The notes under the pieces were generated by a model. It searched no databases. It worked only from the letters and a program-made list of their open reading frames with translations, and was not told the origin of the DNA. 64,000 nt of DNA, from NCBI GenBank assembly GCA_963855995.1, contig OY979717.1:50605744-50669743 (forward strand), given 5' to 3'. Within the stretch, counting starts at the first letter, position 1. Each line of letters opens with the position of its first letter. Position numbers and translations under genes: made by a program. Shown piece after piece: positions 2,946 through 59,700 of the stretch. The DNA comes from Muricea muricata. Lineage: Eukaryota; Cnidaria; Anthozoa; Malacalcyonacea; Plexauridae.

Positions 2946-5900
2946 TTTTTAAATGCTTCAAACACTTGTTAGTAAGCTGCGTACAATTACTAAAGTCCAA
3001 ATGGATTATTTTCTTCAATCCTAGAAAACAAATAGAATGTGATGCACACGAGAAACTACAACATACACTGAACCTCTCTCGTATCTCAAAGCCAAAGAGG
3101 CTGTTTAATTTATGATGCAGCACATGTAGTTCACATAGTTAAGATTACCGTTTGTTTAATTCGACTTAACGAGCTGGATTGGTTACCACAATCTCATTGA
3201 AGCAGGTTAGACCTCGCTTAGTAGGCAGAAAATTTTCTCATGTACAAAACACTCATTAACGTGCTAGTCCAGTTGCTATTATGAAGACAACCGTTTTTAA
3301 ATTGTGAAATATAAAATGCTGCGATGACTCTCAGGAAAATACCAAACATACAAAACAGTCGCCATAAGCAGAATGTAAAATGTTTATAGCAATTTCGCCA
3401 ACCCGGCTTTCACATAGATAAGCCCCGATTATAAAACATTTGAAATTCATAGCTACAGGTACAGTACCTGCGATTGCTTCCAAAGCTTTGTCAGTGAAGA
3501 CTGTGCATGATTTAACACTCAGATGAGTCAGATTTTTGAATAACCTGCACACAAATATGAACACCAAAAAATTATTAAAATCCCACTCCATACTTCCTAC
3601 TCGTTTATTCTCAAGCAAACGCTTTGGTTAAACAGGCGATGAAATCAAATGACAGTCTAGGGAATGGAATGCAGTAGGATCACTCACCACTGCAACGTGG
3701 TGACTTATTTTTATGTAGTTGACTGACTACGGCCAACCAGACGACCATTTGAGAAATTTGTCGAAAATTCCTAATTTACACGGTCAAAAACATTTCACAC
3801 ATGTTATTTTCAATGCAAATTTGGTTGTGTAAAAGGGGCTTTACGTGTTTATGCGTACCATTAATTCGAGTTATTCAGATTTTCAAACTAATACTTTAGT
3901 TTGCGACTAATTAGAATGTGAAAAATTGTCTTTTTTGGACACTGTGTTCTGTACATGAATTGCTTATAATCAAGCTCAAATTATGAATGTATAATTGCTC
4001 GATAAATAATGTAGCATCCAAATTCGTTTGCAGTGCTTTGTAAAGGTACTCCTTAAAGGGACATGGCAATATCTCTTTCTTGGCTCACCGATAATTGCAA
4101 GTAATTGTAATTTTATCCGTAACATTTAAAAAAACTAAGCATGTTATCACAAAAGTTACAACGGATATAAAAGTTCTTATCATCGATAAGCCAAAGTAAA
4201 AAATATAATGCCAAGTATTTTTGAAACCTTTTTTAAACTTGTAATCTAAATACCTTATGGTATGGAAGAGTTCATTTGTCACGTAAAGATAATGATCCAA
4301 TGCAAGTTGTTGTAGTTGACTACAAGAATAAATAAAGGAATGTTAACTCTGAAGATAATTGCTATTACGGTCACTTTACCTGCGATGGCGAATTTTTCGC
4401 GACTTTTACTGCAGCTTTCTCCTTTTGATATTGTGAAGGAGTGGACGAGTTAGAAATGGTACACAGAATATATTTCACAAGTATACATTTCGAACATCCT
4501 AAGTACTCGTTCAGGTCTATTAGGAGGAGAAACTTTTAAAACTAGCACAAGACGTTGCAGACTAGAATATAATACATATACTAATACTAACGACACCACT
4601 AGAAAAAATTATACATATATTAATACTAATGACAATAGAAATTCTGTCAAACAAGATTATTCCTAAATCTTATAAATACGAAAATTTTGAAATCGAAAAT
4701 TTTCATCTGGATGGGTTTATCAACTATTTTAAATTACTAGATCCATTTTCCTTATCGCAGAAAAAACGCGGTTATTTCATTTCGATCGCTCTGTTTGGTT
4801 CGCCTCTGAAAAGTTCAATTCTGTAGTTATACATCTGCGATAGAAGCAAGCAGGTGCACGTACAGTATATCTTAAATATTCAAAATAAAGGTTTTCTTAA
4901 CTTCCAATATCCTTGTAGAATATTCATATATCAGGCAAACACTTATGAACTGATACCACTTTGAAATCAATTAAACATTCAAAATCGCCCTTTTCTCGAG
5001 ATTCTACTTTAATAAAATTAAACAAAATATTATATTCATAAAAAAAAACTTACCAAGGCACAAAACAATTCAAGGTTTTAGCCGTCAATGTCTTCTTGTT
5101 CATTAAATATTTTAAGATTTTCAAGCACAGACGTTGGGATAAAGGTGCAAGGCTCCCTACTGGATGGTGATGTCCAGGTAATCGTGTTGCAATGTCCTTG
5201 ATACATGTATCCACTAAGGTTGGGACATCGTGACTTGGATGAGACACAGGGTCTGTGTCAAGTTTAACTAGGAAAGAAAAGAACAATAACTGATTATATT
5301 GTGGCTTATAACGTTCATTCTAGATTTAAAAAAACCTGTTTATTTTTATGCGTGCTTAATCCTTAAAGTGCAAATTTTACAATTTTTCCACTTTTGTAAA
5401 TTAAAAAAAAAAGAACTCAAGAACTTCAGGCAAATTCGTTTTTGTAGGAATATGCGCTAATGTGCAACTGAATTTGCAAGATTAAAAGGGGAGAGGTATT
5501 TACTGCGTAAAACGTTCCTCGACTAGATAAGTTTCAAGCAACAATTTGTATTCTCTTCTCATCCCTCGCAGAAATCAACATTTATAAGGGTTGGTATTTC
5601 TTAATCGCAAGTGAAAAACGTACAAATGTCGAAATCCTAACAGGGAATGACAGTGAAAAATATCGCCAGCTATACCTGTAAGGATTCCGGCAGAAGGTAA
5701 ATATTTCTCAATCTCAAAGTGGAAATCATATACATGTCATGCATGTCTATCAAACGCTGGGATATTAGGTAGCGGTGTTGCCTACAAGTGCCTGCAGCTA
5801 ACAGAAATCCATGGACAGAAAGTCTTATGCAAGTTCATGTAAACCAACGAGTGTTGTGGTTTGATGGTTTGACCACTCCCTGGCCGATTTGTTTTATTTT

Positions 5901-8900
5901 TGTTGATCAGCTGGCAATCTCGCATGCTTGGCACATGAAAATTTTCGGGCAAGTCGGTTTGATCAAATTAGCAGATACAGCGCTCATCTAGTCATCTTTG
6001 ACAAGATGATGTAGTAGATAACTCAAAAAATTGCCACGTGCCCTAGCCATGTCGCAATTTGTAAGATCCAAGCAAAGCGGACAAGATTGAACCACGCTAA
6101 TTGCAACTCTTTCTTGCCATCTTCGAAACAAAATATAAAGACATGTCGAAAATAAACATCCATCAACGAAGTCAAAAATTCATTGTTATTCATCATAATC
6201 GTGTCAAAATTAACAAAATTAACAAACATAAAGTGATGCGAAGGAAACATTTTAAATTGTCACTGTTATGAATGGATACGGCTGGCACGATGCACATGTA
6301 AAAAAGTCATGGTATACGATACGAATAAAAAATATACAGATACCTTGTACAGGATCGTGCACAGTTTGCAATCTTGACCTTGCTTCAGCGGCTTCCGCTG
6401 CAGATTCAGCATGAATGACACGATCAATAGCATGTGGATTATAAGGATGTCTGCCAAGAGATAAACCAGCTCCCCATGCATGTTGATGTCGTCTGATCTC
6501 CTGGTCAGGTAATTCAATATCATGACCTATTTCATTTTCGACAAGTATATCATCCTCTCTTTCTGGAGCTTCATTTTCATGCTCTTCTTGTTCATGTGAT
6601 ACATCACTCTCCCTAACATCTTCACTAGGAGTGGCAACATCCTCACCTCCTTCATCTTGTCCTTGTAGAAAACATATTTGCATGTTAAACCACCAAATAG
6701 AAATAAACAGAAGCGCCATTAGAGTCGAAATAATGAGCACAAAATATGTTTAAAGCCCGCGTATAGCCTAATCCTCGGCTAATGTACAATTGAAAGGATC
6801 CCTATCTGCTTGTCTACAAACTTGGAAACACTTCTTCACAAATCTTGTCTATAGATCAATAGTAGTTTCAGTCACTGTAGTATTGAAATAAACGGACTTG
6901 TAGAAATACAGAAACTAAACTAAAACAATAGGTTTACGTTTATCGCTAACCTACTGTAGCATTCAACAGAGGACCCCAAGAATAACAGGCAATAAAAATA
7001 CAGTAATACGCATTTTAAAACGAAGTACTTTTTTAAAATATTTCCTTAGACCAAAACATCATCTTTGCGCATAAGTAACTAGTGGCAAAAAGTAAATGAT
7101 TTAGCTCGCTTTTTATCATCGGTGTGATTTCTAATTGTATATAAATTGATGTTAGAAAACTACAGACAACATTCTTTCATGATATTGTGATGCTACTCCG
7201 AGTGTAAGCCACACTGGGCAGGCTGAAAAATTTGCCTGGCCACAGCGGGATTCGAACCAGCGACCTTTGGAATACTAGCCCCAACGCTCTACCAACTGAG
7301 CTACACGGTCAGGACGGTTCGATAAGTGATATTTCGGAACACAGTCTAGTTCCTTCAATAGAAGGAAAAAGGCTAAAGGAAACTAGCCCCAACTATCGGA
7401 GTAGCATCACAATATCATCATAACCCGAGTACAACATCACCATTAGTATATTATATAATTAGAGTATTAGGTATTGAAGGAACTAGACTCTGTTCCGAAA
7501 TATCACTGACCGTGTAGCTCAGTTGATAGAGCGTTGGGGCTAGTATTCCAAAGGTCGCTGGTTCGAATCCCGCTGTGGCCAGGCAAATTTTTCAGCCTGC
7601 CCAGTGTGGCTTACACTCGGAGTAGCATCACAATATCATATCATATTTACCCGAGTACAACATCACCATTAGTATATTATATAATTAGAGTATTAGGTAT
7701 TGAAGGAACTAGACTCTGTTCCGAAATATCACTTATCGAACCGTCCTGACCGTGTAGCTCAGTTGGTAGAGCGTTGGGGCTAGTATACAGAGAGCAACGC
7801 AAAAACGTAGAGAGTACAGTTACCTGTGGAACATGAAGTTCTCTTCAAAACTATACATCCACCAGGTACCAGGCCTAGGGACACCAGAGACTGTTGAAGA
7901 TCATCATCAGAGAATTTTCTGTGGGGAAATGGCTAAAAATGCACACATCGTGTCACAATTGTTACAATAGGTTTCATAAACGGAACGCTGGCAATAGTTT
8001 GTTGAGAAAATCACCAAATGAGCAGAGATATAAATAATGCAGATAGAGGACGAAAACCACTAGTTTTCAATATATATGTTTATTATTACGGGTTAAAACA
8101 GCGTTTATAATACTCTATGGGCAGTAACAATTTTTGTTTCCTCGGATAAACGGTCCGGAGTACATAAGGTCTACAGTCAACAACCTGCATGCAGAGATGA
8201 GCTGAATGCAAACTTAAGAAGCAGTCCAACTTGATCCAATCAGTGTAAGGGTGCTTCTTGAAGGCACATTATGGCACATGCCTGGGCAAAATTCATTTTT
8301 AATTTGTTTAGATGTATCTAATGTTTCTTCTCTTGTTGTGACGTTACTTAGAATTCCGTTGGAAACTGTATACACTGTCAGGAGTCAGTACTAAAAAATA
8401 CCTGAATGACATCAAGATTGTCCGACTCATTATAAATTTGTTTTATTCTCTGTATAACAACAAGTAATGTTTCGCTACTTTGGCATCTTTCGATCACGTT
8501 TTTTCCATTAGACAACCTGATCTACAAAATCATAAATAAAGTATAGAGAAAATATGTAAGCTTCATATTATTCATAATGATACTTAGTGATAGTGGTTTA
8601 ATTATTGTAACGATAGTGGATACAGTGATACACTATAATCGTTTATTAGTTTTTCAATGTGCTCATTCGCAGTTTGGAATCCTCAGTAAGAACAGTGAAA
8701 GTGTATCAACAAGTTATCTCACTTTTAATCTACATAAATCCTTTGACGCTGTGTCTGATGTTGTTGACGCTGTGTCTGATGTTGCGCCGTCATCGGTTTT
8801 TTCACTGGAAGATTTTTTTCCTGTTCTTCGACTATTGGCTATGGCTCTGTCTTCTCTGAATTGTTGCAAAATTTCCTGGCGAACCTAGAAATGGAACAGC

Positions 8901-11900
8901 AGCGGTAAGGAGTTTATACTTCTTCTTAACGCAGTTTATTTTTTCACTCCACGATTTTGTTCAGTAAAATCGACTAAGTCTGGATAAGAGAGATACGAAT
9001 TTGGTATTTCTAAAAACCTTTCTAGTGTAAGAAATCTTTGCAAAATTCTTATCTCGATAATTCTTTTAAGAAAAAGAAAGTAAAGAGAAACATTTTTGTT
9101 TAGCTATAAGGAACACCCCTATAAAACTATTTTGCGTTTCTAGTCTCCTTCTGATAGATGTGAACAAGTGGATTAACAACAAGTGTCCTGAGTTTATGGT
9201 TTCTCACCTGATCATTGCTAACTGGCTCACTCGTTCACATCAATCAAATGAGAAAATTGCTGTAAAATCGCTGGAAAAATTGCGATTAAGCAAACAGCTC
9301 AAACATGAATCTTGTCTGAATTCTTTTATTTTCATGTTGGCTTTACGAAGTAGGAAGAAACAAGGCAGCAGATACAATGCATACTTGATTGTCAATAAGA
9401 CGTCGTTTTTTAGCATCACGTTGAATTTCATCTCGCTTTTTTTGTTCAAACTCTTCTTGAGCTTTCTTCTGGGATTCATCTGTCGCATATCGACTTACTA
9501 CATGCTCAGCACTCTATTGTCATAAAGCATATCATACAAGTGGACCATTAATTCATGTAGAACATAAAACTAATTCCCTGTGAGAGTTGAAATGGACTGT
9601 AATCGTTTAAGACGTAAAACTGCCAACATTCGCATGGACATAGGCGACATTTTGTCCCTAAGTCGCGTCAGTTCATCATTTTTTAAAATTATTTTTTCTA
9701 TACACGCAAACGTTTGGCTCGGCTGGAGTGCATATGTTTAATCCTCCCCCTTAACAAACTGCTGGATGGTTTCACCAAGCAAATTGCCGAAAAATGCTAC
9801 CTATATACAATATACAACTAAAATACTCTAATACCTTCAACCAACGTTGGCAATGTCAATGTCGAAAAATGCACACAAAACAATAGGATGTCTAAATAAA
9901 GTTTCTGAACCGTCTCTGATCGTAAAATTTATTTAGACTGCAGACTGGCAGTCGATAGCTTGTGCTTAAATAAATTTTACGATCAGAGAATGTTTCAAAA
10001 AATTTATTATGAATCCTCGTCGCGCATCAAGCATTTTTAATAGGATTTCTCTCACCACCTAAACGTTACAAGAAAAAAATCCACGTTTCGAGGGAAGGCT
10101 CTTCGTCGAGTTAGTGGTGACTAACTTTCCGGCAAAGAATCTAGTTCAGTAAATCATCGTTTCGACTAATTATCACAAATAAATACTTTAATGAGACAGG
10201 CACTGCATTTCGCTAAATGCAATCATAGCCTGGGCTTTCCGCACATGGATTTTTTTCCGCCTAGCTTTAGTTGCATGTTTCGGATTTTATAGAAATTTCT
10301 TCATATGGAAGGGATTAATCAAGAACGTTTCAGGGTACCAAATCACTTGCTGTAGCAAATATTGCTTACGTTATCTTCAGCAGGCGGTGGTGAGCGAGTT
10401 TGAGACGGTTTATCATTCTTTGACGATTCGCTCTCCGGAATCGCTGTTTTCTCCACAGTCTTTGATTTACTGCTACCTTCATTAAGCAACCTAATGAAAA
10501 ATTGATGACTATGAACTAAATATGTGTATATTTATGCTCTACGGTTTAACTCTAAGTAACAAATTCAGAGTAATACCACAAACATCATTTTCACTTGCAT
10601 GAGTACACAGCACCAACATACATAAATGGTGCCTGCGTGGTGTTGTAAAGGTGATTCGGACAAAAATCGACAGTGTCTAAATTTTCTCTTTGTATAGGGC
10701 ATTTTAAACCGCGTTATAGTAAGGTATAAGTATCATTCTTCTAAGCCTTTAACTTCAACTGAAAGAAAAAATTGACGGCACTTTCCATAGGAGTGCGCCC
10801 ATTGAAAATAAACTGAATTGAACCCTTGACATGAAGCCTTGCGTCTTTTTCAATTGGTTGTATTCATGTCCCTTGCAGTGGCAAATCAACCTGACAATTT
10901 AGTTTTAAATCATTATCTTTATTGTATAAACACAGAAGTGACAGAACTATTCACAAAACAAGACCAAATCGTGAAAGACTTGCAAATTTGCCAATGTGTC
11001 TTTTACTCAAATAAATCTGACCTGTCATATCCCGTAGTTGTGAGGGTTGTAATTTTATTCAATAATTATTCGTGTGTATCTTGGATTTACCATTCCACAG
11101 CAGCTTCAACAGTTGAATTTCCTTCTGCAATGGCTAGCTGACATCCGTCGAAATCAAAGCCCAACGACATCAAAGTAGCAACAAGGGTGTCCACATCCTA
11201 GAAAAGTATATAATAAGCCAAAAAGAATTAATGTTAGGCTAAATATGAATATTTATTTCTCCAATTGTATTAAGATTGCTTCCTGATTTGATTCATATCA
11301 ATGAAGGGCGAATTTACGTTTGTGTTCATCCTGCGGATGCATGACAGGAAGATCATCTCTTGTTCGCAAAAATAGAACACATTTAAGCAGATCCCTTTTG
11401 TAATCTAAGATATCGATAACAAATTTAATACGTGGAGATTTGTTTAAATGAAGTGGAAATGATTAAAGTCGAAAGATCAGCATATTAATTTTTATCTTAA
11501 TTTTCAATCTACGTCCGAGAGTTTTCAAGATGCATCTAATCAAAATTTCTTTCTACAGGCTTTCACAGTGACGAATGGAAATAAACTTGTAAAATTATCG
11601 ACAAAAACGCAGCTTTTCTTCTGTTTTCGCGTAGCAAACGATGCAGCATGAGTTGTGATTATCCCGCAACTAGCCCTTCACAGCACTCTGTGATCAGCTA
11701 CTTGCCACGGAATTTGATGGATTGGAATGAAGGAATTCTCCGATGAAACGTTAGAGATGCGGCAGCGGTGAATGACGCTTGGAATGACGATAGCGTAAAC
11801 GTGTAGCCCCCATTGCATTCGCACACCCGTATTAACTAACTACCCCCCCCCCCCCTGAACATTCCCTGTTTGTGGAGGCCAGCGTACACGGGGAAACTCG

Positions 11901-14090
11901 TGAATTTCGGCAATTAGCGTTGACTTATTACTCCTTTCGAAAAGACGTGGCTCGAGTCCCAATGTTAAGACCAAAATTGGATCGAACCTGCGACCTTGGT
12001 GAAAGGCGAGCCCAGAACTCAGTAAGGATTAGCATTGTTGGTGAATAATAGCGTATAAATTAGTGAGTTACATGCACTTGGTTATTTGGTGTACACTAAC
12101 CGTAATTTACTATAGCAAAAAAGATGACAGTATGTGGATTTTGTGAGCATCACGTAAGAATAGCTGAAATTTAAATAGGTTAAAAAATAACGTATTGTCT
12201 TCTGTTTGTTCCTCAAAAGACGTCAATTTAACTCATTAAACAATTTTAGACAGCAATGCACTCTGGTAAAATCAACATCCGCCATCACGGTGAGTTAAAC
12301 TTTAACAGATTATACCTTGATATACAGTTGGATTTACAATTTGTAGAAAATAAGACGAGGGCAAACGCCTATGGTTAAAAAAACATTTGCCAAAAACTAT
12401 GACAAATGGTGTTTAACAACCAAGGTTCATATTTTTAAAGATACATAAATATAAACGTGCAGCAAGGATGTCGCAGAAAATTCTCTCTCTCATTTAGATC
12501 CCTTTTCGATTCTGTTCGGGCATGCACCATTCACTAAGTTCAGGAAACATTATTCTTGAAACAATTTTTTTAGGCCATTTCTCTGTATTCAGCCGTTCAG
12601 TTTCGGTATTCGATCGCTTTTTTTACACTGATACAATGACAAGGTCAAGTAAAACATTATCAGTAAGCATAATCCTCATAATTATGATATGCCATCAATT
12701 AGCAAGTAAATTTAATTTTCACAGCGATAAAATGTTCTGATCTTATTATCTGACACGAGTAAAAGTGTGATAATGGTATCTAAAAATTACCTAAATTAAA
12801 TTAACAACATTCTATTCATTCCGAACAGGTTTGTCATTTGCTACATAACCTACGTATCTTCTCTTTAAAAAAGCTAATTAGAAGTGTGCTAAACTAATTA
12901 GAGCCAATTAGAGTCTCTCATCACGCAGAATATCATATAATACAAACAATCACAGCTACTGTATTTAACAAAGTCAACCTAGTAACAACCATGACTCCTT
13001 AGCTTTAATTCAATAGGATTTGTCACAAATTACGTTATAATTGCAATACGAAAAAAATGCAATAAGAAAAAAAATGTAATAGCAACAAGAAAGCATGATA
13101 AAATGACAATTTATATCAACTGAAAGCAAATGAAAACTACAACTAATATCTATCTAATATGATCCACAATACAGGTAACAAATGTAAAAATTATTTAATA
13201 CTGGATTATGTGGAGAGCATGATAAAAGTTTTTCTTTACATATAAAAATGGTTGCCTCCTCAAGGATGTATAAAACACTGATTATAAGGTTTTAGCTCGT
13301 TTTTAATATTGTTCCATAATCTCACTGATCGAGGGAAAATGAGTTGTGATGGAAGCATTGACTCTGACTGAAGTTGCTATAAAGATTGTTGTGTTCAATG
13401 AGAATTTTAATGGGAAGAAACAGGCACAAATAAATAAATTGCTAAATTCCACGTAAGCCATGGGCTAAAGCTATTACTATTATACTGTACTTGTCGAGAA
13501 ATGTAGATATACATAGCTACAGTACTTCATAGTAATGGCATTAAAATCCAATTTGTAACCACGCAACATATTAACATAGCGGCATATCAAAACAGCTTCT
13601 GTGGATTTTTTTCCTTCTTGTGTCAGTTATCGAAAAAGGATTTTTGATTATTATAACAGTTTGCTAATGAGATTTAGCAGGCTAATTAATTATAGCATCC
13701 GTTAATAATCATTAAACTCTAAAAAGTCTATAGGCTATTCGTAAATCGTATTAACTTCGAAAAGCGATCACTACCCACGCTTGGCGATTTGTGCATTGTT
13801 TACTAACATATTAAATCACTTTATTGTTTTGTAAGGTAATGCGTGTACATGCAAGTCCTTGTTAAACCAGTTTCAATGAGATCTACAACTCTTCTTGGCT
13901 TCTTCCTTCTTCTTAGCCGAGTGTTTTTTCAGTACTCAATTGGATGCCAGAAACAAAGAATACTAAAGTACCTCTCCCTCTCAGTCATACGGCCATTTTC
14001 ACACTCATTGCAAATACGAACTCGCTTGCTGGCTGGCTGTTTAACGTTAACGATAATTACTTGCAAACACTCGCAGTGAGCTTTCGACAT
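2946..14090 (-). CDS. UBA-UBX-leucine-rich-repeat protein (3' end not found)
   Basis: Exons in transcript order: 14090-14061, 11197-11091, 10490-10370, 9468-9385, 8884-8723, 8521-8402, 8201-8185, 7918-7824, 6661-6344, 5267-5054, 4319-4254, 3544-3468, 3020-2946. All junctions keep phase and give 495 codons plus one base. Residues 11-50 are a UBA domain (LMSLGFDFDGC, then EAAVEWLLNEG). Residues 87-135 are charged and helical, as in UBXN1/SAKS1. Residues 165-241 are a UBX beta-grasp domain (CRLKIRLSNGK, ending LGLVPGGCIVLKR). Residues 247-300 are very acidic. From about residue 395 come LRRs of the RNI/AMN1 type (NLTHLSVKSCTVFTDKAL, then IHLDFSNCTQLTNKC). By family knowledge, UBX domains dock p97/VCP and UBA domains bind ubiquitin, so an adaptor in protein degradation is inferred. 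I see no F-box. The start ATG (MSKAHCECLQ) rests on one 30-nt phase-0 exon and is less certain than the rest. Confidence 0.82.
7190..7345 (-). mobile_element. tRNA-derived SINE, copy 1 (inverted)
   Basis: The tRNA-like head is at 7310-7239 on the minus strand, with an A box (TAGCTCAGTTGG) and a perfect B box (GGTTCGAATCC). The body that follows (GCAAATTTTTCAGCCTGCCC) runs into TGATATTGTGATG-type DNA. The sequence is almost identical to copy 2 in the opposite orientation. Confidence 0.68.
7399..7747 (+). repeat. Direct repeat of about 110 bp around SINE copy 2
   Basis: The block from GTAGCATCACAATATCAT through CCCGAGTACAACATCACC to TGTTCCGAAATATCACT occurs at about 7401-7506 and again at about 7622-7732. 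The second copy carries an extra TATCGAACCGTCC before the next tRNA-like head. This gives a tandem SINE-plus-spacer unit of roughly 220-240 bp. Confidence 0.65.
7508..7640 (+). mobile_element. tRNA-derived SINE, copy 2
   Basis: The head at 7508-7580 folds as a tRNA-like cloverleaf with weak pairing in the acceptor stem (several G-U pairs and one mismatch). The A box TAGCTCAGTTGA is at 7514-7525 and the B box GGTTCGAATCC at 7560-7570, both close to the Pol III consensus. The anticodon arm is off-size, and the head continues into a non-tRNA body, so this is a SINE and not a functional tRNA gene. It sits in an intron of the UBA-UBX-LRR gene, opposite to its transcription. Confidence 0.68.
7748..7786 (+). 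mobile_element. Truncated tRNA-SINE head, copy 3
   Basis: This repeats GACCGTGTAGCTCAGTTGG through GGGGCTAGTAT and then breaks off into unrelated sequence. The A box is present and the B box is missing. The break lies 38 bp from the UBX exon at 7824. Confidence 0.6.
8185..8201 (-). other. 17-nt micro-exon inside the UBX domain
   Basis: Exon 8521-8402 ends in phase 0 (DVIQ) and exon 7918-7824 starts one base into a codon, so 3n+2 coding bases are missing between them. The only fitting piece I found is 17 nt preceded by gcattcag and followed by GTTGTT. It encodes LISAC plus two bases of an Arg codon. The joined protein (DVIQLISACRKFSDDD) aligns with the UBX segment VQLLSGFPRRAFSEAD of human UBXN1. 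The proline-containing FPR loop that contacts p97 in typical UBX domains is not kept. Transcript evidence is needed. Confidence 0.55.
9913..9989. repeat. Perfect 23-bp inverted repeat
   Basis: The arm at 9913-9935 (starting TCTCTGATCGTAAAATTTA) is exactly matched in reverse complement by 9967-9989, with a 31-bp spacer. It lies in an intron of the UBA-UBX-LRR gene. It may be a small foldback element; no duplication of the target site is obvious. Confidence 0.6.
11198..14060. other. Intron 1 of the UBA-UBX-LRR gene
   Basis: A 2.9-kb intron under the model that starts at 14090. It contains a C-tract near 11846-11856 and AT-rich DNA. I recognise no coding exon, RNA gene or complete mobile element in it. 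Confidence 0.4.
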
Positions 14091-23500: not shown

Positions 23501-26500
23501 AAAATTGCGTGACCCCAGTTGTGACGTATCATGCATATCTACAAATATCAAAGATGGCGGACAACTAAAGATTTCAAGTCAAAATATCTCACCAAATAAG
23601 GCAGATGTAAAAATTCTGTAATAGACTTCTATATATTGTTTTGGAGTCTCTTTCAAATGAGACGATAAAAATTTTTGTTGCCGTTTCTCTTTAAATAGAA
23701 ATTTTCAGTTTTATTCATATTTTTTGCATTAATTTTTGTACATAGGTTGCGTCAAAAAGATGTAAAGGAACATACAGCAATTTCACTGGAAGCAGAACAT
23801 AAGGAAGGCAAGGTACGGTACTCACCATCTTGATATAAATGATCATCTTTTCATTGTCATGCTGTGTTGTTTACTAACAACATTCAATCGGAAAACATTT
23901 CCGAATGAACTATCGCTTATCGGCATGAATCTTTTCTCCTAGTCAAGCAAAAGCAAAAGTCGAGCTGCTGTTGATAAGACTTTTTTCAGGTAAAGCTATG
24001 TTGATGTATGGGGGAGTTTTATTTTAAGTTTAAGCATATGTAATAAAAACCTCATTAGTGTTATATCTATGGTGTTTTATAACAACAGTCCATGCCACAT
24101 ATTCCCATATGGCACTTAAGGAAAATTGCATTTTACTCTTGACTGAGGCTGGAAAGTTGCATGTCCGCCCGTGTATGATAATGAGGTAATTTATTTGTAG
24201 AAACTTGTTCCAGTTATTAAAAATTGTAATTCCTGGATGGCTGACTCCAGAGGTATGTTGTATCCTTAAAACATGTTTTAGTTTTAGCTTTCATCAAGCT
24301 ACAGATACATCCTGCGATTTTTTTCACACTCCACTGCGTTGCTAGCGCAATAGGAGGGCAGTCAGACCTGTATCACATCCTGTGCAACCAGGCAATTGAT
24401 ATCTGACAGCTTTGGCAATTGTTGCCGAAACTTAAAATCATTGTGGTTTAATTTTCGACAAAGATTACAGAAAATTACAGACTTATGAACTACATGTATC
24501 TGAGTGAGCAAAAGGCAACAGATACCTGTAAACGCGTAAAGTTTTCGCTAACCATAAGAATAGACAAATTTTGAATTTGAAAAACGATTAGCACAGCACG
24601 AAAGAGCATCTTAAATTTCGTACAATTGTCAAGTTTGGTTGCAAAATATTGTAAAATGTGGAAAATATAGTCCTGTAAAGTTTGCGAATTTTCTATACAA
24701 TTGTGTTACGCGCGAAAAAGCGTTACCACTATGTGGAAATGTGGTAGCGCTTTTTCCCGCGTAATACAATTGTATACAAAACCCGCAAACTTTGCATTAC
24801 TGTATTTGCAACATTTTACAATATTTTACAACCAAACTTGACAATTGCACTAAATTTAGGAAGCTCTTTCTAACTGTGCTAAAATTGTTTTTGAATCTAA
24901 AAGTTTGTCTAATTGGGGAATGGTCTATTACGGATAAAAACAAATCCAGGTGCATTTGAAGCAATGGGTCTGTTTAACCGGCCTATTGAAGAAGAGGCAT
25001 ATGCTGTAGCATGCAGTCCAAATGAGTAATATGAAGTTATTTTTTCATATCTCTGAAGATGATTCCTGAAGATATAGAATTTACTGAGTGTAAAACATGC
25101 TCAGTGAGTTATCTATGTGATATGTGTTTATCTCATAACGAAAATTTGTTGTTTTCTAGACTGGTTTGTTACTGCTTGTGGCGGGCTCACTTTTAACTCG
25201 GACATATTGTGATTTATGGATGATACAAAATACTACAAGTGTAGAAAGGTTGGTCCGTTTTGCCTGCATCTCAAATTATCACTCTTGTCCGTTAGGAAAT
25301 TAGGGTTTAGAAATCATCTTGAAGATTAATAATATTTACTTTGAGCAAATTAGCAGATACATATACCCATAACAGACAGTTTTGACAATATGATACATAT
25401 TAACCGGAAAAGCATTGTTTGGTGCCCTGGGATGGTTGAAATTTGTTACCTTCAAGCGAAGTGGGCACAGGTTTGAACCTTGCAGAACAAACCGCAAAAA
25501 ACCTGGCAAATACTGTATACATACAAGTCCAGTCTAATCAATGACTCGATCCTTGCAGGGAAGAAATCAGGTAGAGCAAAAATCTAATTATTTAAGATGC
25601 TTGTAGAGAGTTCTGGGAAATATCATGTTCTGGTTCATCAGCCTTACGTGCAATATTGTCTACATACACTATATTATCTATCTGTACTATTGTGGCTTTT
25701 AGGTCAATTATTGGTCGTGACTTTGAAGGTGTTAAGAAGAATATTTTGGCATTTGTGTACCGCATGCCACTCGTAAGTGTGCGAGTAGTTTTTGGGAATA
25801 TCTCAAAATCCGCACTATTTTACTTTTTTTAAGACATCATGCATCTGACTCTCTAAACTAAAGATCGTTAACGTATACGCTTTATGGATGCCAAAACGAG
25901 TCAGTTGGATGTTTAATTCAATTCTGAGGTCGCAGATCAGATGTGCATAATTTTTTCATCACTGGAAACATTGTGTAAATGATATCCAGTCCTCTTTAGT
26001 TTATGACGTGCGATCATCAGAAACTGGGATTTCTTTGCGAACTGTTAAAGTTCAGCTCCAGTAATAATTCGTTCATGCGCCCTGTGTCGTCAAAAAATCA
26101 GACTAAGAAACCAGTGAGACAAGCACATTGAGAAATTGCATTTGTACAAAGTGTGTATCTCTTTTCCTAACGAAAACATTTTATTCACTTCTTTAGCTTT
26201 CAATTGTTAATAATGTGCTGAAGGTAACCGTAGTTTTTGTTCATTGGTTAAGAGCTGTGTTGATGTACTTGTAACTATAAAATATGCTATGTTCTGCCTA
26301 CAGTATGTGTCTAGTTCCTACCATGTTATATTATAGCATACTTAACCATGCCATTCCATCTCATGCCATGTCATGCAATACCATACCATATCATGCTATG
26401 CTATTCAATGTCATGCCATGCCATGCCATGCCATGCCATGCCATGCCATACCATACCATACCATACCATACCATACCATACCATACCATACCATACCATA

Positions 26501-29500
26501 CCATTACCATACATTTCCACACCACTGCAGTGCCATACATACCATACCATACCATGCAATGCAAGGTGATGAAATATATTCGTATCTAATAACTAAAATT
26601 TTCAGTTGCCAATTGACGTTATTTGGATGTGTTTTATGTCATATCTACTGTACTATGCTGTCTTAATGAACTTAGTTTACAGTAATACAAAATGAACATG
26701 CATCATAATTGTTTCTTTTTATTTAGTTTGGTCTAAATGAATTGGAGCTTCGTTTTAGGACACGAATGACGAAGCATCTCTTATCAAAATATTTAAGGTA
26801 AGTCTCGTAAATATTTTAAAGATCACCTGAACCATTTGATAACGTTTGTTGAATTACAAAAAAATCGTAGTACAGTATCTAACACTAAGTTATTGAAGGG
26901 ATACAATTTATTAATTTACAATTAACAACAACGGTACAATGAATATATACTACATTACAGTGCAGTAGAGTACGGTAAGTACTGTGCAGTACAGTATATA
27001 CTTAGAATAATGCAGTACACCAGGATATGTACAGCATTATATATCACAGTGCAGTGCACTGCATTGCAGTGTTGGGCATTAGAGTAGGGTAAGGTACGGT
27101 AGGGTAGGATATGGTACAGTAGTGTTGGATAAGATGTGGTAGGATAGGGTAAATATGAAATAATTAGTATAATTTCTTTAGTAAATAGTGGTTTTCAAGC
27201 ATTTTGATAGGTTGACTGACTAGTAAATCTGAGCCATTATTTACTAGTTGGCATTTTTTCAAAATGGCCGCCAATGAGAGTCGTTTTGATGTATTATACT
27301 TTTGCCAAAAGTAGCAAATGGAGAAAAATTACATTAATATAAACTCAAAGAATACAAACAAACTTTGATGTTAAACTATCTTAAGGTAATAGATCGTCTG
27401 CAAATACCTTATTTAATATCATTTTTTTTAGTTTACTCGATTCTGATTGGTTAAAAAGTGTGCCGATTAATCCTTAACGGAAACGGGTTATACGTCATGT
27501 AGTAAAATATTTTTGTGATAAAATTTGTCAACATTTTTGTATTTTATTTTGAAATATTCAAAAAATCAGCAGTTTTTGTACAAAAAATGTTCACAAGGTG
27601 GTTAAAAAACTTTCGATGGATGAATACTCGTGTTAGAAAAGGTTTCTTTGAAGAGAAAATGGCAAACCTGAAAGTATTTGTTGCGAAAGTTTGCGAAACA
27701 TATCGCCGGCAGCACTTCATTCACAAAAACAGTTAAGTTCAGCATTGAAATATGTAGTAAAATGATATTAATAGGAAATTACACTTGTTCTCGGAGTATT
27801 AATGAAAAATCTCACTTGTGTTTGGCGAAATATTTATAATACCGCTCGTGCTACGCACTCGCGGTATTATAAACATTTCGCCAAACACTCGTGCGATTTT
27901 TCATTAATACTTCTCGAACCGTGTAATTTCCTATACAAATACTTTTTCACTATTTAAAAATTACAAGTAAACTTTAGTCTTTACTTAGGAATTTTCAGAA
28001 GTAAACCGTATTCATAAAAGACGACAGTGCATTTTATACACGTAAATTTTACTAAAGAAATTATGCTAAAACAATTATTCGCCTCGGTGAATATTCACCA
28101 ATAATCACTTCGCTTTCGGCGAATAATTGTTAATTAATTATCATTATACATCTCTCTTTTTAGTAACTGTGTATACTATAAAATAACCAACTTGGACACA
28201 AGGATATCTAACCCAGATCAATTACTGACTCAGGTACATATTCTAATGCAAACACAGTTTGTGACCGTCCTATGAAAAACATCGGTTGCAAATAGTTAGA
28301 GAGGAAACAGATTAAGTAAGAGCATTGGCAGTCAAGCAAGAGTGGTGGTTGCATCTCTCTTAAACCCTGAACCTCGTTTGTTTTTGTTTGTCGATTTGAA
28401 GAAAGCATTTCGTGTTTTGTAGGATGTGGAGAAATTCTGCAGCGGTCTGGTAGAGTTGTATTCCAATCTTAGCAAGGCAAGTTATTTAATAAACCTGTAC
28501 GACATACAAGAAACCTGTACAACAAATGACTCTCGAACAACAGTAATTGCTGTTTCAGTGGATGTTTATGTGATCTAGTTTTTTAGTGCATGGACGTTTA
28601 TGAAGTGATTATATTAGTGACGGCCAATACACAATTGGGAAACCATCCGAAGTTATCTGCGGACTGTGTCAAACTATAAGGTGATAAGTGTTGTATTTTT
28701 TCATTCTTTGCAGCCAATATTGGATATTATTTTGTACGTCTACAGACTTTCTGGTGCAATTGGTGTACAGGTAATGTACTACGAACAAAAATATCTGTGA
28801 ATAACAGGCAATAAGGATGTCAAGAGTAAAACACTTGCCTGACATCTAAAACCACAGGTGTTCGCATCTTAACAGAATGAAAACATTTTCTTCATGATTT
28901 TGCTAGTTTCTACACGTACAGTAGGGTTGTCATTTGCGGACTGTCGATTTTCTGGCTGATTAAATTCAAAAGGATGCTTAATAATGTTCTATTTTTTGGC
29001 GGCGATGTGGTTAAACTGACTCGACCTAGTCCTCATGTGGAAAAGTGTATAAGTCAACGCTTTCCCAAAACTGTTGGTTTCAACCGGGTACTCCGGTTTC
29101 CTCCCACAGGGAAAGTTGACAGGGCTAGTTAAGTTATACTAATTGGCTGTTGCGGCGAGCCTATCTTTGTGGCTTACTAAATACTGCAAATAACCTTGTC
29201 TTCGGCAAAAAGGCCGTCTGTGTACTTCAGCAGTTTTCTGGTGTGATTCCAATGTGGAGCTAGTTGGATGCCGACGGAACTATATTTGCATACCAAAATC
29301 TTCAAACATTTTCCACCTTTTGTAACGGTCGAGAGATTGGTTGGAAATCGAGGATTTGTTTAACAGTGAATCGTAATTCTCTAGTGTTTTCCAGTTTATT
29401 TTTTTCATAGCTACACTATGTGCATATGCGAAAATATGTGTAATAGTGTTCACAATGAATGCGTGACTATGTTTCTAGGGTCCTCTAGCAATGCTTGGTT

Positions 29501-41500: not shown

Positions 41501-44500
41501 CATGTATTATTCGTCATTGATTCGACTGTTAGGAGGACCCCCTGCAGTGGTGTGCTGGCCCGTCTTCACCTAGGAGGCCCCCTTCCCTCCTTGTAATTTT
41601 GAAATGGGTGAGTGTTTTCGGCAGGTGATTGCTGAGATTTAGATAAGGTCTTGGGCAATGTTTATGTATACCAAATGCAAGCATCTGATTTGGTGAACTA
41701 CTGATTATAACTGTGTGCCATAGGATTTATTGATAACATTGTGTTTACACCAGTGTTATAGTAATTTAAATATGAGAGCTAGAGCTGTTCACAATCCTCG
41801 AACCTAACAAACAAGACTGACTTAACATCCGACGACGTTATTCAAGCCGGAGAATTGGAAAACTACTCCCTCGAGGAAAGAACGCATACAACGAAGATCT
41901 AGCAACTAAAGCTCTGAAGAGGGCTTCGAAGCAGTGAGGGCAAGCAATAGTGCCAACTTTTGTGCAAGGTGCTGAGAGGAAGCGCCGCATGCGCTGGCAA
42001 GGAGCGCGCTGAAAATCTAGCACCACATTTCCATTCCAAGCATGCTACCTCGGTAAAACTGGCCGCAAATTCAAAACGGCATTTAGGAGGCGAACAACCA
42101 AGGATGCTGACTAACGGGAAAACCTTCAATGGGCGGCAAAATACCGGACAAAGCAGAGCGATAAGTATTGATTGCTCGATAGTCGAAGCCCTCATCAAAG
42201 AAATAGGCAAGAAAAGCTGTTATATCTGCCAAAGTAGGGCAAAGCGAATCAATTTCCGTCTCGACACACCAGCTTGCTCCAGGCAGAGTTATTTGTGCCT
42301 GGCCGCCAAGCTGAACTTGGAAGCGTCTTCTGAAATTCCTTGCGCTGCAGGCGCATGCACACATGCCACGCGGCTAGTTGCAGAGTTGGTTGACAACTAA
42401 AGCGTGCGATTGCCCCTGCGGACCGCAAAGAAGCATAGGAGCTCATGCAAGAAGCACTGGTGGGGCAACTGACATGAGCAGCAGTGGGTGCACCAAGCCT
42501 GAGTTGGCCACACTGGGGAAACAAGGATCAACTCGCCCCCTTCCGCTCTCAACTTCGCAGGGCAACGCATGATTAGACAGAAAGGAGGAAACTTGTAGTG
42601 CCCCTCGGTTGACCGGTCCTGTTGAAATGCATCCGTGGTCAGCGCCACTAAATCCGATTTCTCACTGCAAAACCGGGAAAGTTGAGAGTTTAATCGATCC
42701 GCAAAGAGATCGGTCGCACAAGGGCCGCGGATCTACATCTGGGAACAGAAAATTGCTGAGCAAAGATTCAAGTTCCACTCCCATAGAGCAAGAGCGAGGT
42801 TAGAGAAGACTAACGAGCGAGTCCCAACTTGCCGGTTGAGATAAGCCACCGCAGAAGTGTTGTCCTTACGCAGGCGCACATGAACACACAAACGATTTTT
42901 CGTAAAGCTTTTCAGCACAAACGATCCCGCTAGAAGCCCCAGACAATTAATGTGAAGCTTCTGTTCGATCTGAGACCACAAAGCATGCAAAGTCGAGGAG
43001 AGTTTGCTTCCAAACAAAGCGCTGGTATTTCCTCCGATTTCGCTGAATTGAGATCACAAAATACGCGTCCTTTAGATCGATCTTGCACAGCCAATCGTTG
43101 CGCTGCAGAAGATCGCGCAGAAGGTAGATGCCCTGCATCTTGAAGTGAGGGTACTGAAGACATTTAAATCTTTTAAAGGGACAGGAGTTTCCGTCGCGTT
43201 TGGGAACTAAAAATATACTGCTGACAAACTGATCGAAATACCTTGTAAAGTTTGCTTTCCTGACGCGGGTGCTGTGCTGAGCCTTTTCTCTCATGGTAGG
43301 AGAAACGACCCCCGCGATTTTGGTACCTCTGGCTCCATCCATGGCCGTGAGTTGTTGGAGCCCAGGGCTTTTCCAGGCCGGAAGCGAACGAGTCTAGCTC
43401 CTTGGAAAGTTTAAGTTCCTTTAGAAAGGATTTTTCAAATTTCTTCCCGAATAAATCGGTTGAACCTGGGCAAAACAAGGAGGGTCTTTCATAAGATTTA
43501 GGGAATGCTGTGTTCGAAATATAGTATCAGTCGCCTGTCAATCGATAGAATCTGACATCTCTCATTTTTCTTCGAATATTTATGTTGTTTTCTCCAACAC
43601 ACTGTTTTTACGTTGCTTTCTCCAACACAGCACACTAATGTTTCCCGGGGTGTGACTGCTTTTGTCAGCTTATAGTTCTCGCTAAGTGACGGATCAATGG
43701 CCAATGCTACATGTACACCAAATTAAGAAATGTCGACCTCTTGAGGGAACAGGCTTGTATGATCCTCTTGACACAAGGATTTTTCTGACAGTTTCATCAT
43801 TAATATAAAGTGCTTATGACATGCATTCTCTCCAACTATTTTTTGATTGCATTAAAAAGATCACCTAAAATGAAAACATAACATCCGTGGTAGAATTTCT
43901 CTAACTCTCTTCCTTCTCGAGATATATTTATATGCAAATTACACTGTGTATGACATCACTATGCATAATAACTTTTGAAAAATCATCATTTCTTTGCAAC
44001 GTGATCGACTCAGCGATTATTTGTATGTGTAGCGCATTTTTTGTTCTTTCGTATTGTCATTTGCTACAAAATCAGCAAGCTCAAAGATACTCAAAATCCG
44101 CAGTGATGTCATTGGTTGTGTCAGTAATTTGCATATTGACTATCTCGGGAAGGAAGAGATAGAAAAGACGAAAAATTGTAGCAATGGAAGTTGTATGTAT
44201 GTTATATTACCATAATTTTGAGCGATTTTTGCACGGCAGTCAAACCGTTCAGAACACAGCCATGCATTATTATCGCAAAAGTGCTCAGTTTAAACTTTAA
44301 ACCAAGGCTTTGGCTCGAGGTTTGGAAATACCCATGTTCCCAAATTCTAAATATGTAGCTTTGTCATATTTCCGAAAATCCTGGAAATGTTGTCAAACAT
44401 ATATTACAATAGTAAGATATTAATTTGTCAATAGAGACTATCTAGCTTTTGTCTGACCTGTGTTACTTGCTGTTAGCCTAAGCTTATCATATACTAGTGC

Positions 44501-53700: not shown

Positions 53701-56700
53701 TGTGCGTACTTCAAACATCAAAAGCTTTCTTTTCAGGAAAATGCCCTTCAACAAAATCATCACTCGGTTTTTAGAAGACATTGTTTAATGTCACCAGATT
53801 CTATTCTTATTTTCTGTTGGTTTTGTAGTCTATTAATTTAGTAGGCACTAAACCACTGAATCTGTGCAAAGACAAAAATTCAGCTATAGCGTGAGCAAGT
53901 TTAACATTAATGTACTGCGCTTGTTTATTTGCCAAACATGTTTCAAATATTTTCAGAACTGCAATAATTATTTGTACGTAAGTCAAAACTTCAAGTGCAT
54001 GTATCAAAACACTCAAAGCTCTATTTCCTTAAACCTATCATTCAACAACTAAACATCTAAGATTAGCCTTGCATGCTTTCTGACGTTTCATGTTTCAAAT
54101 TTCCATCTCATGTGACTGCCAGTACCTTTATAATAACAAGAAATTCGGTCCTAACGAGTAATGAAAACAACACATTTTGATTTTTCGCGTTATTTGCGAC
54201 CATGCTACCCCATCGGGTTTAGTTCGTATTGAAACACCATATTTAGAAATATCGAAGCTCGCAAGATGAGTTTAAGCAGCGCGCTGCTATTTTGACTGCG
54301 AGTAAATGAACAACATGTGGGGCAGAGCATATTACAATTGAGTGTGTAAAGGTCACAAATCACGGGAAGCAAATGGTACTTGCACCAATCCTCAAAAAGC
54401 AAGAGCCGACTTTTGGGGGTATTTGCGAAATTTGTTGACATTCCAACTGATGATGCAAAATTAATCTAAATCTAGTTTCAAAATGTTCATTGTACCTCAA
54501 ACGTTATAAAGGTCATGAGAAGTGGCTTAGCCACAGGATGCAGATTCATGATTGGATTAAACTGCGTGTTTTCCTTCGCTGCTCCTACGGTCAGCAAAAA
54601 CAGAAGGAGACACAATGAACATTTTCTTTTGTCAATACAAGGAAATGCCGTTATATACTTGACATGACTGCGTCAATTATGTTAATTAGGAGGCGAACGC
54701 GCACGCATATTCGATGTTACATAACTGTGTACACGAAATGAAGTTCATTTGAATGCCAACTTAAGAAGCATTTCTTGCCGTTTCTAACATGCGGATTTTA
54801 CATTAATATTAAAGCCTAATCTCTCAGTGGGTTGCTTCTTTAGTCCGCGTGTGGAGGACAAGTAAAGTATTACGCAATGCTGAATGGGCCCTACAAAAAT
54901 GCAGGAAATACCGTATCGAAAACACATGGAGTTGTCAATGGCAATTTACAATAACATGTGAGATATAAATGCGTACAAAATGCGGCATTAGCCTGAATTC
55001 TGGCCACATTTCATCAGTTGGCTCGGATTACAAGTGCGCAGCGGGTATGTGACAGGATTACACATGCGCTAATCGCATTTCATCTCTCCAGGAATAGCTC
55101 TTGTGTAGTCATTTAATATTTATTCTAGCTATGCAAAAAGCACTCGAGGCAAAACACGCACGATGAACATTTCCTGTGACAGGAAAGCTGAGTGAAGTAT
55201 TTCAAGGAGTAATCTACTGCACTAGCGATAAATTCTGGCAATACCTAGCACTTAACACTTAGGGCACTTGATTTTTTACATGAACATTTCATATTTTTAC
55301 CAATAGTACGTAGATAGCGTACGTAATTCATTTTATGACTTTCTATCATATGCGCGCTCATAGCCTAATCGATTTACAAAAACCGCTGACTTAACAGAAG
55401 TATGTTATTTGCTGATTGAAGTCTAGAATTCGGAATCCTTTAAGTTCCCAGTATATTTATATATAACAAACACCACGTTATGTAGCAATTTAATAAGTCA
55501 TCATTCAACCAAAGAATATCAAAGTCACGAGTAAGTATGTTATATGGGAATATACCTTGACATTGTGCGGCGAACTTCAAAGGAAAGTGGGTGTCAATAT
55601 TAATATTTCAAGCCCTATCAAATCTAAGTGGATCTTCACCCATGCGATACCGAAGAAGAAAAACTGCGCAAGCGTTATACTTATTATGATATGATTGAAA
55701 CGCATTATGAAAAGATCATTATGCCAAATCTTTGCTAAACCATCCTGGTTAATTTCCTGTTCAATTTAACCTCCAGAACTTTGACAGCGTATCAAAACTC
55801 ACTGATCTCACAGAGCGTTCGACCGTTGTTTTTTTTTCGTTAGGCTTAAGTTGTTTTAAATTTTTTCGAGCTGGTGATGCTGGTATTTTATCACGCGTGT
55901 CTCACTAGAATTTGAAATGAGCAGTCTTTTAAATTTGAAATGAGCTGTTCATTTCGCTTCGTATGGTTCATTTCGAATCATTCGAGTCATTTTATAGAAG
56001 AAATTTGTTTACTCGAAACAAAATCAGCATAAAGCCTATGAAAATTTTCGTGATGTTTTATAAGATATAACCCAGAAGCGGAGATATACTTTTGTCTTTC
56101 ACGAAAATTTTTTAATCTGAGTGGTTTTTTTATTGCTAAATAAATGATGAAAAATTGACATTGGAATTTCACCGCGGGTAAAGTAAGTGTAAAAGCTTAC
56201 CATGCAAAGATGTACTGTGAATTCCACTCCAACACCCACGGAGAATATCAGAGTGACTGCTGGGATAGCGCTGAGTTTGATGCCAACTAGACCAAGGAAG
56301 CCAAACAACTCAACCGTAGTCATTGCTAGAACTACAACCTGCAAAGTGATAGCAATACAAACATAAAATTTAGATTTCATTTAGAGCGGCACGATAAACC
56401 CGTTTCTAATGGAGTGATGCATTTTAAATACACACGATAGGACATTTTAGTTGCGGCTAGCCGCTAGACGATCGTTTTTCACACGGCGTGAAAATATCTC
56501 ACTCAAATTGAAAGTGCAAAGTCTGGCGAGTCACTTTAAAAGTGCCAAAACATTGCCTTATTAATGTTTTAATACACTCATTGGACTCAACATGATCGCG
56601 ATATTTAAAAGGTAAATATCGCGTGGAATGGAGACTAATTTCATCAGCCAGAGGAATTCTAAGCTTTGTTTTTCTAGTACGATTTCTGACTGTGTTTTGA

Positions 56701-59700
56701 CTTATTATCTCACCATGACCAAGCGTTTATATGTGCGTTGGTATATTCAACTTAATCTATGTCCAACTGGCTTTAAAATTAATATACAGTGTCTTTGAAA
56801 GATAAAACAGTCAGAAACGAGATAATGGTTTCATGTCTAAATTTGTCCTGGTAGTAAATGAGCTAGAATCTTCGGACTGCGTGTGAAAAAAGGGCCAGAA
56901 TTTTTAACTTATTCTGGGGCCTGTCACCCAGTATATGGTAAAAGCAATTTTGGAAATGGCAAAAAAATGAGATATAGCTACTTAAAATAAGTCCTTAATT
57001 TTTATATATGTCATGCATGCGATCCTATTTTGAGCGCCCTCTCTGTCCTGTAACGATTAATGAAACGCATCCATCGTGACTCACCACTATAGTTCCGGCC
57101 CAGATATTCACCAGTATTACTGAAATAATGAGAAAACTCGCAACCAACACAACGATGACTGTAATAAGCAGTTGTTTTCGAAGCCAGATGTATTGTTCCC
57201 AAAACGTGAATGGGGCGCCACGAGGGTAATTAGAAAGGCCTTCGTTGGTAAACTTATCACAAATCTTCCGTACTTGCTAAATAAATGAAAATGAAATGCG
57301 TCGTGAATTATAGTCTGTGGTAGCATACATCTGTACTTAGCGAAGGATGGTATACAACTAAAGCCTCGTTTTCGTGTCTTGGCCATATAGCTGTACATAT
57401 AATCTAACTATGTAAACTGGTACATATAATGTAACTATATAAATGACTTAGCAATAACATTTTTATTGCATTGTTTCGGTAACAGATTCACGAGCAACGT
57501 AGCGGACCAAACAATCAACCAAGGTCCATACGGAACGAAAACGAGACTAAATAGCAGGAAAAACTACTTTTCTATCAAGGATCTCTGACAGGGATATGAG
57601 TAAATTTCTTACGTGGCAAGGCACATGGGCCTTGGAACTACATTAGTTTATATTGATCAGCTAAATTTTTTAAGTAAGTAAAGACAAAAGTTTTTCGGCC
57701 TCTGGCCTTTTTTATAAGGGTTATATCGGTGCTATAAGAGTAATGTTTTACCCTCGTAAAATAACGTTTTAATAATACAACATGCAGGATACAAAGATAA
57801 AGTCTACCACGATATTACGAATCAAAGTAAAACTTTGGGACATATTTTTAATTAACATGTATGTGTACATTTGCACGAAGTTGTTAAACCATACCTTAAT
57901 CACCTTGATGTAATCAGAGGTTTCTTTCAAGCCATTGACGTAGAAAGGAATTCGAGCATATTTGATCTTATCTGCTGGACGGACTGTGAAGGTACATAAT
58001 AACCAAAGTCAGTGTTACATATACGTCATGGCGTATAGTGCCCTTGGGCGCAACAGCCCTGTTGCTGTTGGGCGCAACAGCTATGCGTCATGGCGTATAG
58101 TGCCCTTGGGCGCAACAGCACAAAAGATGCATGCGCTTCATGTCCGGACATGAGTCGCAACATGTCCGCCAGAGGCGCTCTTAATCGAAAAGCCTTAAAC
58201 TAAATTGAACTAAAATTCTTGAAATTTATTTTACTCAACCAATTTACTCGCTTTATGACATAAAAAACCTACACACCTGCTAGTACATAGTCATCGTGTT
58301 CGAATGGTTTCAAGACAGGCTTGATTTTAACCTAGGAAATAACAAAAACGTTTTATAATTAGTCTGATATTCATTCGTTACTCTTACGCTTTTCATTACT
58401 TACCTTTTTTTTCATTTCTTTGGAATAAGATGTATAGTTCAGTTGCAATATTCATTTAAATGATAATTTTGCTTACCCTTGAGCTCTCGTAACCCATCGG
58501 ATCTTTTTGATACCACGCTCTGAGAAAACTGTAAAATCCCTTTCGATGTATAATCCCTTGTTTGTCAACAAACTCTTCTGTATCGACCTTAATATCAAGC
58601 ATACAATTATAATATATATAATACCCGTGCATATCGCCACTGCATAAACACCAGCAAAAATAAACTGGTTTTAAAAAGTACTAGTTTTTATAAATTTAAG
58701 CACTTTTGAAGACTTTTAACTTTATTATGATCCTTCTGACATTTTGAACTTTGCGGGTAGCTACTTATATTATAATTCAGGTTAGTAAAGTGTTGTTATG
58801 CTTACTGTTGCGTTCTCTCCTGTAATGCTCAAGAGAAGACGGTGAGCAAAGCGTCCAGAGCTAGATGCATTTTTGCCTACACCTTTGGACGTTATAGATC
58901 CATTTTCCCAATCATCTTTAAATGCTTTCTGTAAACCTGCATTCAAAGAGAAAATCATTTTAGACAATAAACGATGCTTGTTCTAAACCTTTTGTTGGAA
59001 TAGGGTCTATTCTCTAGGACCATCGGTCCTTTGCATGCACATTTGCATTTCAAATTTGAAATGTACATGCAGGAAACAAACATACAACTAAAGAAGTGCT
59101 TAATACAATGTTGTTTGAAAAGATTTTAATCACGAACCTTGTAGCCATTCTCTGAAGTAGTCTAGCCAAAATTTAGAAAGCTTTCCGTCTTTATCCTTTA
59201 CGATATAATCAACCTGAATGTAAAATACAAATAGTATGGAAAATCAGGTTCTTATGTAAATTTTTTTACCTTAGGTACCCGAAACGAACTTAAACACATC
59301 TTAAATATCGCTATGCTATCAGTTTTTTCTAACCAGTTTGGGACTAAATATTTCTAGTAATTTATTGTACCTTTGAGAACTCTTGGTGCAGTCGGTGGAG
59401 GTCAGGTTGTCTGTTTGCGTAATCAAAATCACCTTTTGTGATGATGAAAATATCATAAAATGAAAAGTAGTCATTTCTTGTTTGTAAAAACTTTTCCAGC
59501 TTTGTACCTTTTGGTACAACATCAGTGACGTCAATACCATCCTTGACCTGAATACAGCCATAAATGGAGACCGAGAACAGTACGGCGAAAAGGAGGAGAA
59601 CTACAACCTAAAGAAAAAAAATACCAGACGTTTCAAACTCCGTAACTCACTTCTTCATGATTGCTAAACAAATTGGAAGTGCATATAGTTGAATGGATGG

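Follow-up and report, generated by a model that had tools for sequence, protein, structure and literature searches.

Can a single gene join the p97-docking modules of a UBX adaptor to a leucine-rich-repeat (LRR) recognition domain? The question is raised by a locus of the cnidarian Muricea muricata, located in a stretch of 64,000 nucleotides (the window; C2:50605744-50669743, where C2 and similar labels denote contigs) of a genome that was searched as 453 Mb in 74 contigs. A preliminary description of this locus had placed UBA, UBX and LRR regions in one polypeptide and had proposed a substrate-selecting p97 adaptor. We find that these domains, together with further motifs, reside in one open frame. 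We propose, with a probability of about 0.72 on the strength of sequence comparison, that they belong to one gene for an 823-residue p97/VCP adaptor that would derive from a SAKS1/UBXN1-like UBA-UBX protein and carry a C-terminal LRR horseshoe.

Architecture of the gene

Rebuilding the gene on the minus strand from splice sites and reading frames placed 12 exons inside the window, running from 14090 to 2946, and these form one frame with 10 exons to the left of the window edge. These outer exons, numbers 13-22, occupy C2:50605547-50598292 (in C2:50595744-50605743) and end in the codon TGA. In total the model comprises 22 exons, 21 GT-AG introns and 2472 coding bases including the stop, and thus 823 residues. 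Internal stops are absent from the exons between 14090 and 2946. Phases are consistent at all junctions, as the preliminary description had reported for those that it joined; it had counted thirteen exons over this span, where we find 12, and its last exon end at 2946 is retained without being the end of the gene. The two junctions on which the joining of the domains depends, 7824/6661 and 6344/5267, are identical in the rebuilt model. The in-window features are as follows, with exon 1 being the least certain exon.

14061..14090, minus strand: exon 1, start codon ATG, MSKAHCECLQ; moderate donor GTAATT, codon score -0.16
11091..11197, minus strand: exon 2, starting DVDTL; UBA-like domain, shared with exon 3 (residues 14-50, 11188..10478; Pfam UBA_7)
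10370..10490, minus strand: exon 3, end of the UBA-like domain and start of the linker, from splice sites and frame
9385..9513, minus strand: exon 4, K-, R-, E- and Q-rich charged stretch; acceptor weakest of the 21
8723..8884, minus strand: exon 5, charged stretch plus first UBX strand, ending CRLK; intron matches that of a SAKS1-like gene
8402..8521, minus strand: exon 6, middle of UBX (Pfam UBX, residues 177-253)
7824..7932, minus strand: exon 7, end of UBX with the FPHR loop (7929-7918); donor CAG/GTAACT, 9.7 bits
6662..7823, minus strand: intron 7, UBX/linker junction, 1162 bp
6344..6661, minus strand: exon 8, acidic linker, 105 codons within an open frame of 165 residues
6453..6482, minus strand: SHP-box-like motif HAWGAGLSLG, residues 320-329, in exon 8, from a pattern match
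5054..5267, minus strand: exon 9, stretch preceding the LRRs, with BC-box-like motif; acceptor 10.4 bits, third best of the 21
5191..5220, minus strand: TLVDTCIKDI, BC-box-like, in exon 9; fits the consensus (S,T,P)LXXX(C,S,A)XXX-phi
5116..5142, minus strand: LSQRLCLKI, Cul2-box-like, in exon 9; Ser for Pro, outside the strict consensus
4254..4319, minus strand: exon 10, start of the LRR region, from splice sites and frame
3468..3544, minus strand: exon 11, LRR; FBXL2 match, best stretch residues 460-507
2946..3020, minus strand: exon 12, LRR, last in the window, from splice sites and frame; the gene continues left to C2:50598292

Analysis of the joined protein with Pfam supported the combination of UBA, UBX and LRRs in this frame. 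The UBX domain (PF00789) covers residues 177-253 and positions 4-81 of the 82 in the profile (E 9.6e-11, 42.2 bits, cut-off 21), and UBA_7 matches residues 14-50 with a score barely above its cut-off (E 3.2e-6, 27.4 bits, cut-off 27). Within residues 366-823, LRR_4 (E 1e-14) and LRR_6 (E 3.9e-14) each match six stretches, which qualifies the region as a tandem LRR array, and LRR_8 (E 2.1e-7) and LRR_At5g56370 also pass their cut-offs. The identity of the repeats is certain because the out-of-window exons are included; for the in-window protein alone no LRR model passes the Pfam cut-off, the best being LRR_6 at E 0.075. By a simple score of our own, LRRs start at eleven places between residues 464 and 780. 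Comparison of the LRR part with the Protein Data Bank (PDB) matched 97 sequences at E values up to 1, headed by a GALA protein, an internalin and FBXL2, and these matches indicate a type of fold and not a function.

Neither a SEP nor an F-box family was reported by Pfam for residues 1-509 at a threshold of E 1, and an NCBIfam scan of the same residues returned no family. A search of viral contigs for relatives of this part gave two pattern matches, neither of which was confirmed, and the VIM motif, with the consensus RX5AAX2R, has no match in the protein. When the protein was compared with its own genome, 27 matches were obtained at E values up to 1, 19 of which are exons of this gene; exons 1, 13 and 15, the shortest, were unmatched. 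The other eight matches are LRR stretches elsewhere, with 25-45% identity, and among the best candidates, which alone were counted, no second copy of the gene was seen.

Two predicted points of contact with p97

The UBX domain is known to contact p97 through a Phe-Pro-Arg loop (PMC10641518, excerpt). With the start of exon 7 set at 7932, the corresponding loop reads FPHR (DVIQ-PFPHRKF), a form in which Phe and Pro are kept and Arg is shifted one place later, and which appears close to the p97-contacting sequence; a SAKS1-like gene of the same genome has FPKK at this position.

The acidic exon 8 contains RRHQHAWGAGLSLGRHPYNP, a sequence resembling the SHP box of Derlin-1. Its core, HAWGAGLSLG, includes both of the central glycines that are strictly conserved across SHP-containing adaptors according to a study of Ufd1 (PMC5042407, excerpt). 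In the Derlin-1 box itself, H240, W242, Q244, F246 and R247 are named as p97 contacts or key residues (PMC10575581, excerpt); Q244, F246 and R247 correspond to A, L and S in the Muricea motif. Among 20,000 shuffled versions of the protein, none contained the pattern H.WG.G..LG and 327 contained a looser SHP pattern. These counts overstate significance, as the patterns were chosen after the sequence had been viewed. A phmmer search of the PDB with the 56-residue region around the motif gave no match at E values up to 10.

Two Derlin-type loci of the same genome served as a control. Their tails, read from open frames, are GGGHNWGQARRLDDN (HNWGQARRL, C7), which belongs to the genome's Derlin-1-like gene, and GGFNWGAREEV (FNWGAREEV, C14), and pattern scans in which two glycines were required detected no SHP box at either locus. 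UFD1 was likewise located in this genome. As the second glycine is missing from both tails, the control backs the NWG or HxWG core and not the full pattern. HAWGAGLSLG is likely to represent a second p97-docking motif besides the UBX domain.

Relation to SAKS1/UBXN1

In the SAKS1/UBXN1 layout, a UBA domain is followed by a charged helical stretch and a UBX domain, at which the protein ends. Outside this locus, the strongest UBX match in the Muricea genome (C4:18851322) falls in a gene that opens with MSDVDTLMEMGF, continues with charged helices and has its UBX domain at the C terminus, an arrangement characteristic of the SAKS1/UBXN1 family. The gene in the window shares with this family the order UBA, charged stretch, UBX, and with the C4 gene two finer features, namely DVDTL at the start of the UBA domain (the C4 gene begins MSDVDTL) and a phase 0 intron in UBX, which is preceded by CRL(K/Q) and followed by (I/F)RL(S/T)NG, the C4 form being CRLQ before the intron and FRLTNG after it. 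The two genes differ in another nearby intron, which is off by about two codons and in phase, and their UBX domains are only 24% identical over 72 residues (E 0.84). Since an ordinary SAKS1-like gene is present in the genome, the UBA-UBX-LRR gene is separate from it, and identification of the UBA-UBX-LRR gene as a plain SAKS1 orthologue was rejected on this ground. In its protein, 570 residues, with the SHP-like box and the LRRs, follow the UBX domain. An old duplication of a SAKS1-like gene plausibly gave rise to the N-terminal half, with the ordinary gene having been retained.

Three further UBX matches, each of 30.3 bits, were found at C1:27962261, C1:80045155 and C3:49254286, in frames of 544, 801 and 455 residues. 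Their surroundings are near-identical, and all three probably belong to a single repeat or gene family.

A candidate cullin-receptor box ahead of the repeats

An extension of the adaptor reading, which adds to it, concerns exon 9. A VHL-type box in this exon, composed of a BC box and a degenerate Cul2 box, could bind Elongin BC together with CUL2 (or CUL5), in which case a cullin receptor would be fused to a p97 adaptor and one protein would both ubiquitylate a client selected by the LRRs and pass it to p97. The sequence TLVDTCIKDI agrees with the published BC-box consensus (PMC4878042) and is positioned directly ahead of the LRRs, in the order VHL box then LRR that is found in ZYG11B (PMC13379236). 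A BC-box form with Cys arises in 3064 of 20,000 shuffles and is suggestive only. LSQRLCLKI, which follows, is Cul2-box-like with its Pro replaced, and VHL similarly has V181 at the position of P343 in LRR1 (PMC8682755). A precedent for linking CRL2, the CUL2-type cullin-RING ligase, to p97 is provided by UBXN7 (PMC9358472, excerpt). Human AMN1 can be aligned co-linearly with the exon 9 stretch, although the alignment is not significant.

The strict Cul2 box, phi-P-x-x-phi-x-x-x-phi, does not occur downstream of the BC box, and its sole match (residue 380) overlaps the BC box. Alignments of the box with the ZER1-like and FBXL14-like genes of the same genome scored no better than shuffles, and a phmmer search of the PDB with the 96-residue box region gave no match at E values up to 10. 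The motifs thus point weakly to a cullin-receptor box in exon 9, and we consider binding of the cullin machinery by this exon possible but doubtful. That one chain might act both as a cullin-RING substrate receptor, through a BC-box-type box and LRRs, and as a p97 adaptor, through UBA, UBX and SHP, is likewise put forward tentatively.

One gene or two adjacent genes

The UBA-UBX and SHP-LRR regions could alternatively belong to two adjacent genes on the same strand. The first, SAKS1-like with UBA and UBX, would then end after the UBX exon, and the second, with SHP and LRRs, would start near 6683. Consistent with such an arrangement, the UBX frame reaches a stop within about 15 codons when read through the donor, an in-frame ATG is present at 6683, and the UBX domain is C-terminal in plant PUX proteins (PMC8181520, excerpt). 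The evidence at intron 7 favors one gene. Splice sites were scored by leaving out each of the gene's 21 introns in turn, and codon scores were compared with intron controls, for which the 95% value is -0.06 and the 99% value 0.00. The donor at the end of UBX (9.7 bits) is the fourth best of the 21, the phases agree across the junction, and the intron is of ordinary size, as in-window introns range from 201 to 2863 bp. Intron 7 is also the only one of the 11 in-window introns in which neither AATAAA nor ATTAAA occurs on the gene strand, each of the other 10 having at least one. The exon that follows carries the likely p97-docking motif and has a codon score of 0.26 bits per codon, which exceeds the 99% control and is the highest among the 11 exons longer than 30 codons. 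At the next junction, the exon 9 acceptor ranks third. We therefore regard a division into two genes as unlikely.

Several observations weigh against a single gene for a p97 adaptor. At the level of splicing and coding, only three of the 21 acceptors are weaker than that of exon 8, and the ATG at 6683, ahead of exon 8, could start a second gene. Exons 1 (-0.16), 7 (-0.06) and 12 (-0.07) have codon scores at or below the 95% control, making the codon score a weak test for short exons, and that for exon 9 (-0.02) is above the 95% but not the 99% control. At the level of p97 contacts, the UBX loop reads FPHR instead of FPR, and the SHP-like motif reads A-W-G-A-G-L-S-L, with Ala for Phe, where the strict consensus is F-x-G-x-G-x-x-h (PMC8181520, excerpt). 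Both Derlin tails keep NWG and are without the second glycine. The human Derlin-1 box is likewise not known to carry the Phe of the strict consensus.

The weakest alternative is highly improbable and was rejected. Under it, the LRR half would be FBXL-like, with an F-box that has degenerated, and hence an SCF receptor joined to UBA-UBX. LSQRLCLKILKYL is reminiscent of an F-box core, and FBXL2 is the top PDB hit for the in-window protein (whole-sequence E 4.2e-6), but Pfam reported no F-box family for residues 366-823 at a threshold of E 10, with HMMER filters that drop most weak matches, in keeping with the preliminary description, and the FBXL14-like gene of this genome, when its F-box region was aligned, gave a Z of -0.01.

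Intron 7 also holds a divergent pair of repeats headed by tRNA-Thr(AGT), at 7236-7311 (minus strand) and 7507-7582 (plus strand). For the 76-bp minus-strand unit, 46 genome matches were listed (481 candidates, 40 scored), with the plus-strand copy of the window not among them; 34 of these 46 are 100% identical over all 76 bases, and several are paired in a similar divergent fashion, about 60-300 bp apart. The pair has the appearance of a palindromic element that derives from a tRNA and was active recently.

Other features of the window

Elsewhere in the window, three regions were noted, the first two by eye.

56102-62755 (approximate), minus strand: open frames resembling exons of a Patched-type sterol-sensing transporter
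41900-43530 (approximate), minus strand: fragments resembling a decayed reverse transcriptase
26281-26663, plus strand: simple repeat encoding Tyr-His-Thr-Ile-Pro and Met-Pro-Cys-His-Ala repeats, with three frames open

Proposed role and comparison with known systems

The SHP-box-like motif in the linker strengthens the earlier proposal of a substrate-selecting p97 adaptor; the role itself, like expression as one protein, binding and the choice of clients, is what we infer from the gene's architecture. By analogy with its family, the UBA domain would hold ubiquitin on a client, and the UBX domain and the SHP-like box would most likely dock onto p97 N domains. The LRR array would recognize the client itself or a partner bound to it, such that the protein would steer p97 to particular targets and not to ubiquitylated proteins at large.

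For p97, which has many adaptors, the selection of clients remains an open question. UBXN7 and similar adaptors read ubiquitin and borrow their specificity from a separate ligase. If our reading is correct, an LRR recognition domain in the same chain would let a UBX adaptor choose its clients directly. Should exon 9 in addition encode a cullin box, recruitment of the ligase and of the unfoldase would be combined in one protein, as a natural parallel to the UBXN7-CRL2 link. In a literature search, whose coverage leaves out most subscription papers, no UBX-LRR protein was recognizable from titles and abstracts among the matches listed. The term leucine-rich is not used in a review of p97 adaptors (PMC10641518), and neither leucine-rich nor LRR appears in a review of plant PUX proteins (PMC8181520). 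It is quite possible that UBX-LRR proteins form an unannotated but widespread family.

Among known systems, p47/UBXN2 and Shp1 have the layout UBA, SEP, SHP, UBX. The Muricea protein shares with them the pairing of a UBX domain with an SHP box, which p47 carries (PMC5042407, excerpt) and which permits two-point binding of the p97 N domain (PMC5042407, PMC10641518, excerpts). It differs from them in that SEP was not detected, the SHP-like box follows UBX, and an LRR domain is present. Similarity to Derlin-1 is confined to the HxWGxGxxL pattern of the C-terminal SHP box, of which H240 and W242 contact p97 (PMC10575581, excerpt); Derlins are membrane proteins, and this short motif alone is held in common.

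UBA, UBX and SHP are not known to be part of the CRL2 receptors ZYG11B/ZER1 and LRR1. These receptors resemble the Muricea protein in having an LRR horseshoe that adjoins a helical box, which comes first in ZYG11B, and differ from it in that the similarity of the boxes is not significant. The nearest working parallel is UBXN7 (UBA-UAS-UIM-UBX), which bridges CRL2-Lrr1 and p97 and, as a UBA-UBX adaptor, ties the client choice of a CRL2 receptor to p97 (PMC9358472, excerpt). Whereas UBXN7 borrows its receptor through neddylated CUL2, the Muricea protein would carry the recognition domain in the same chain.
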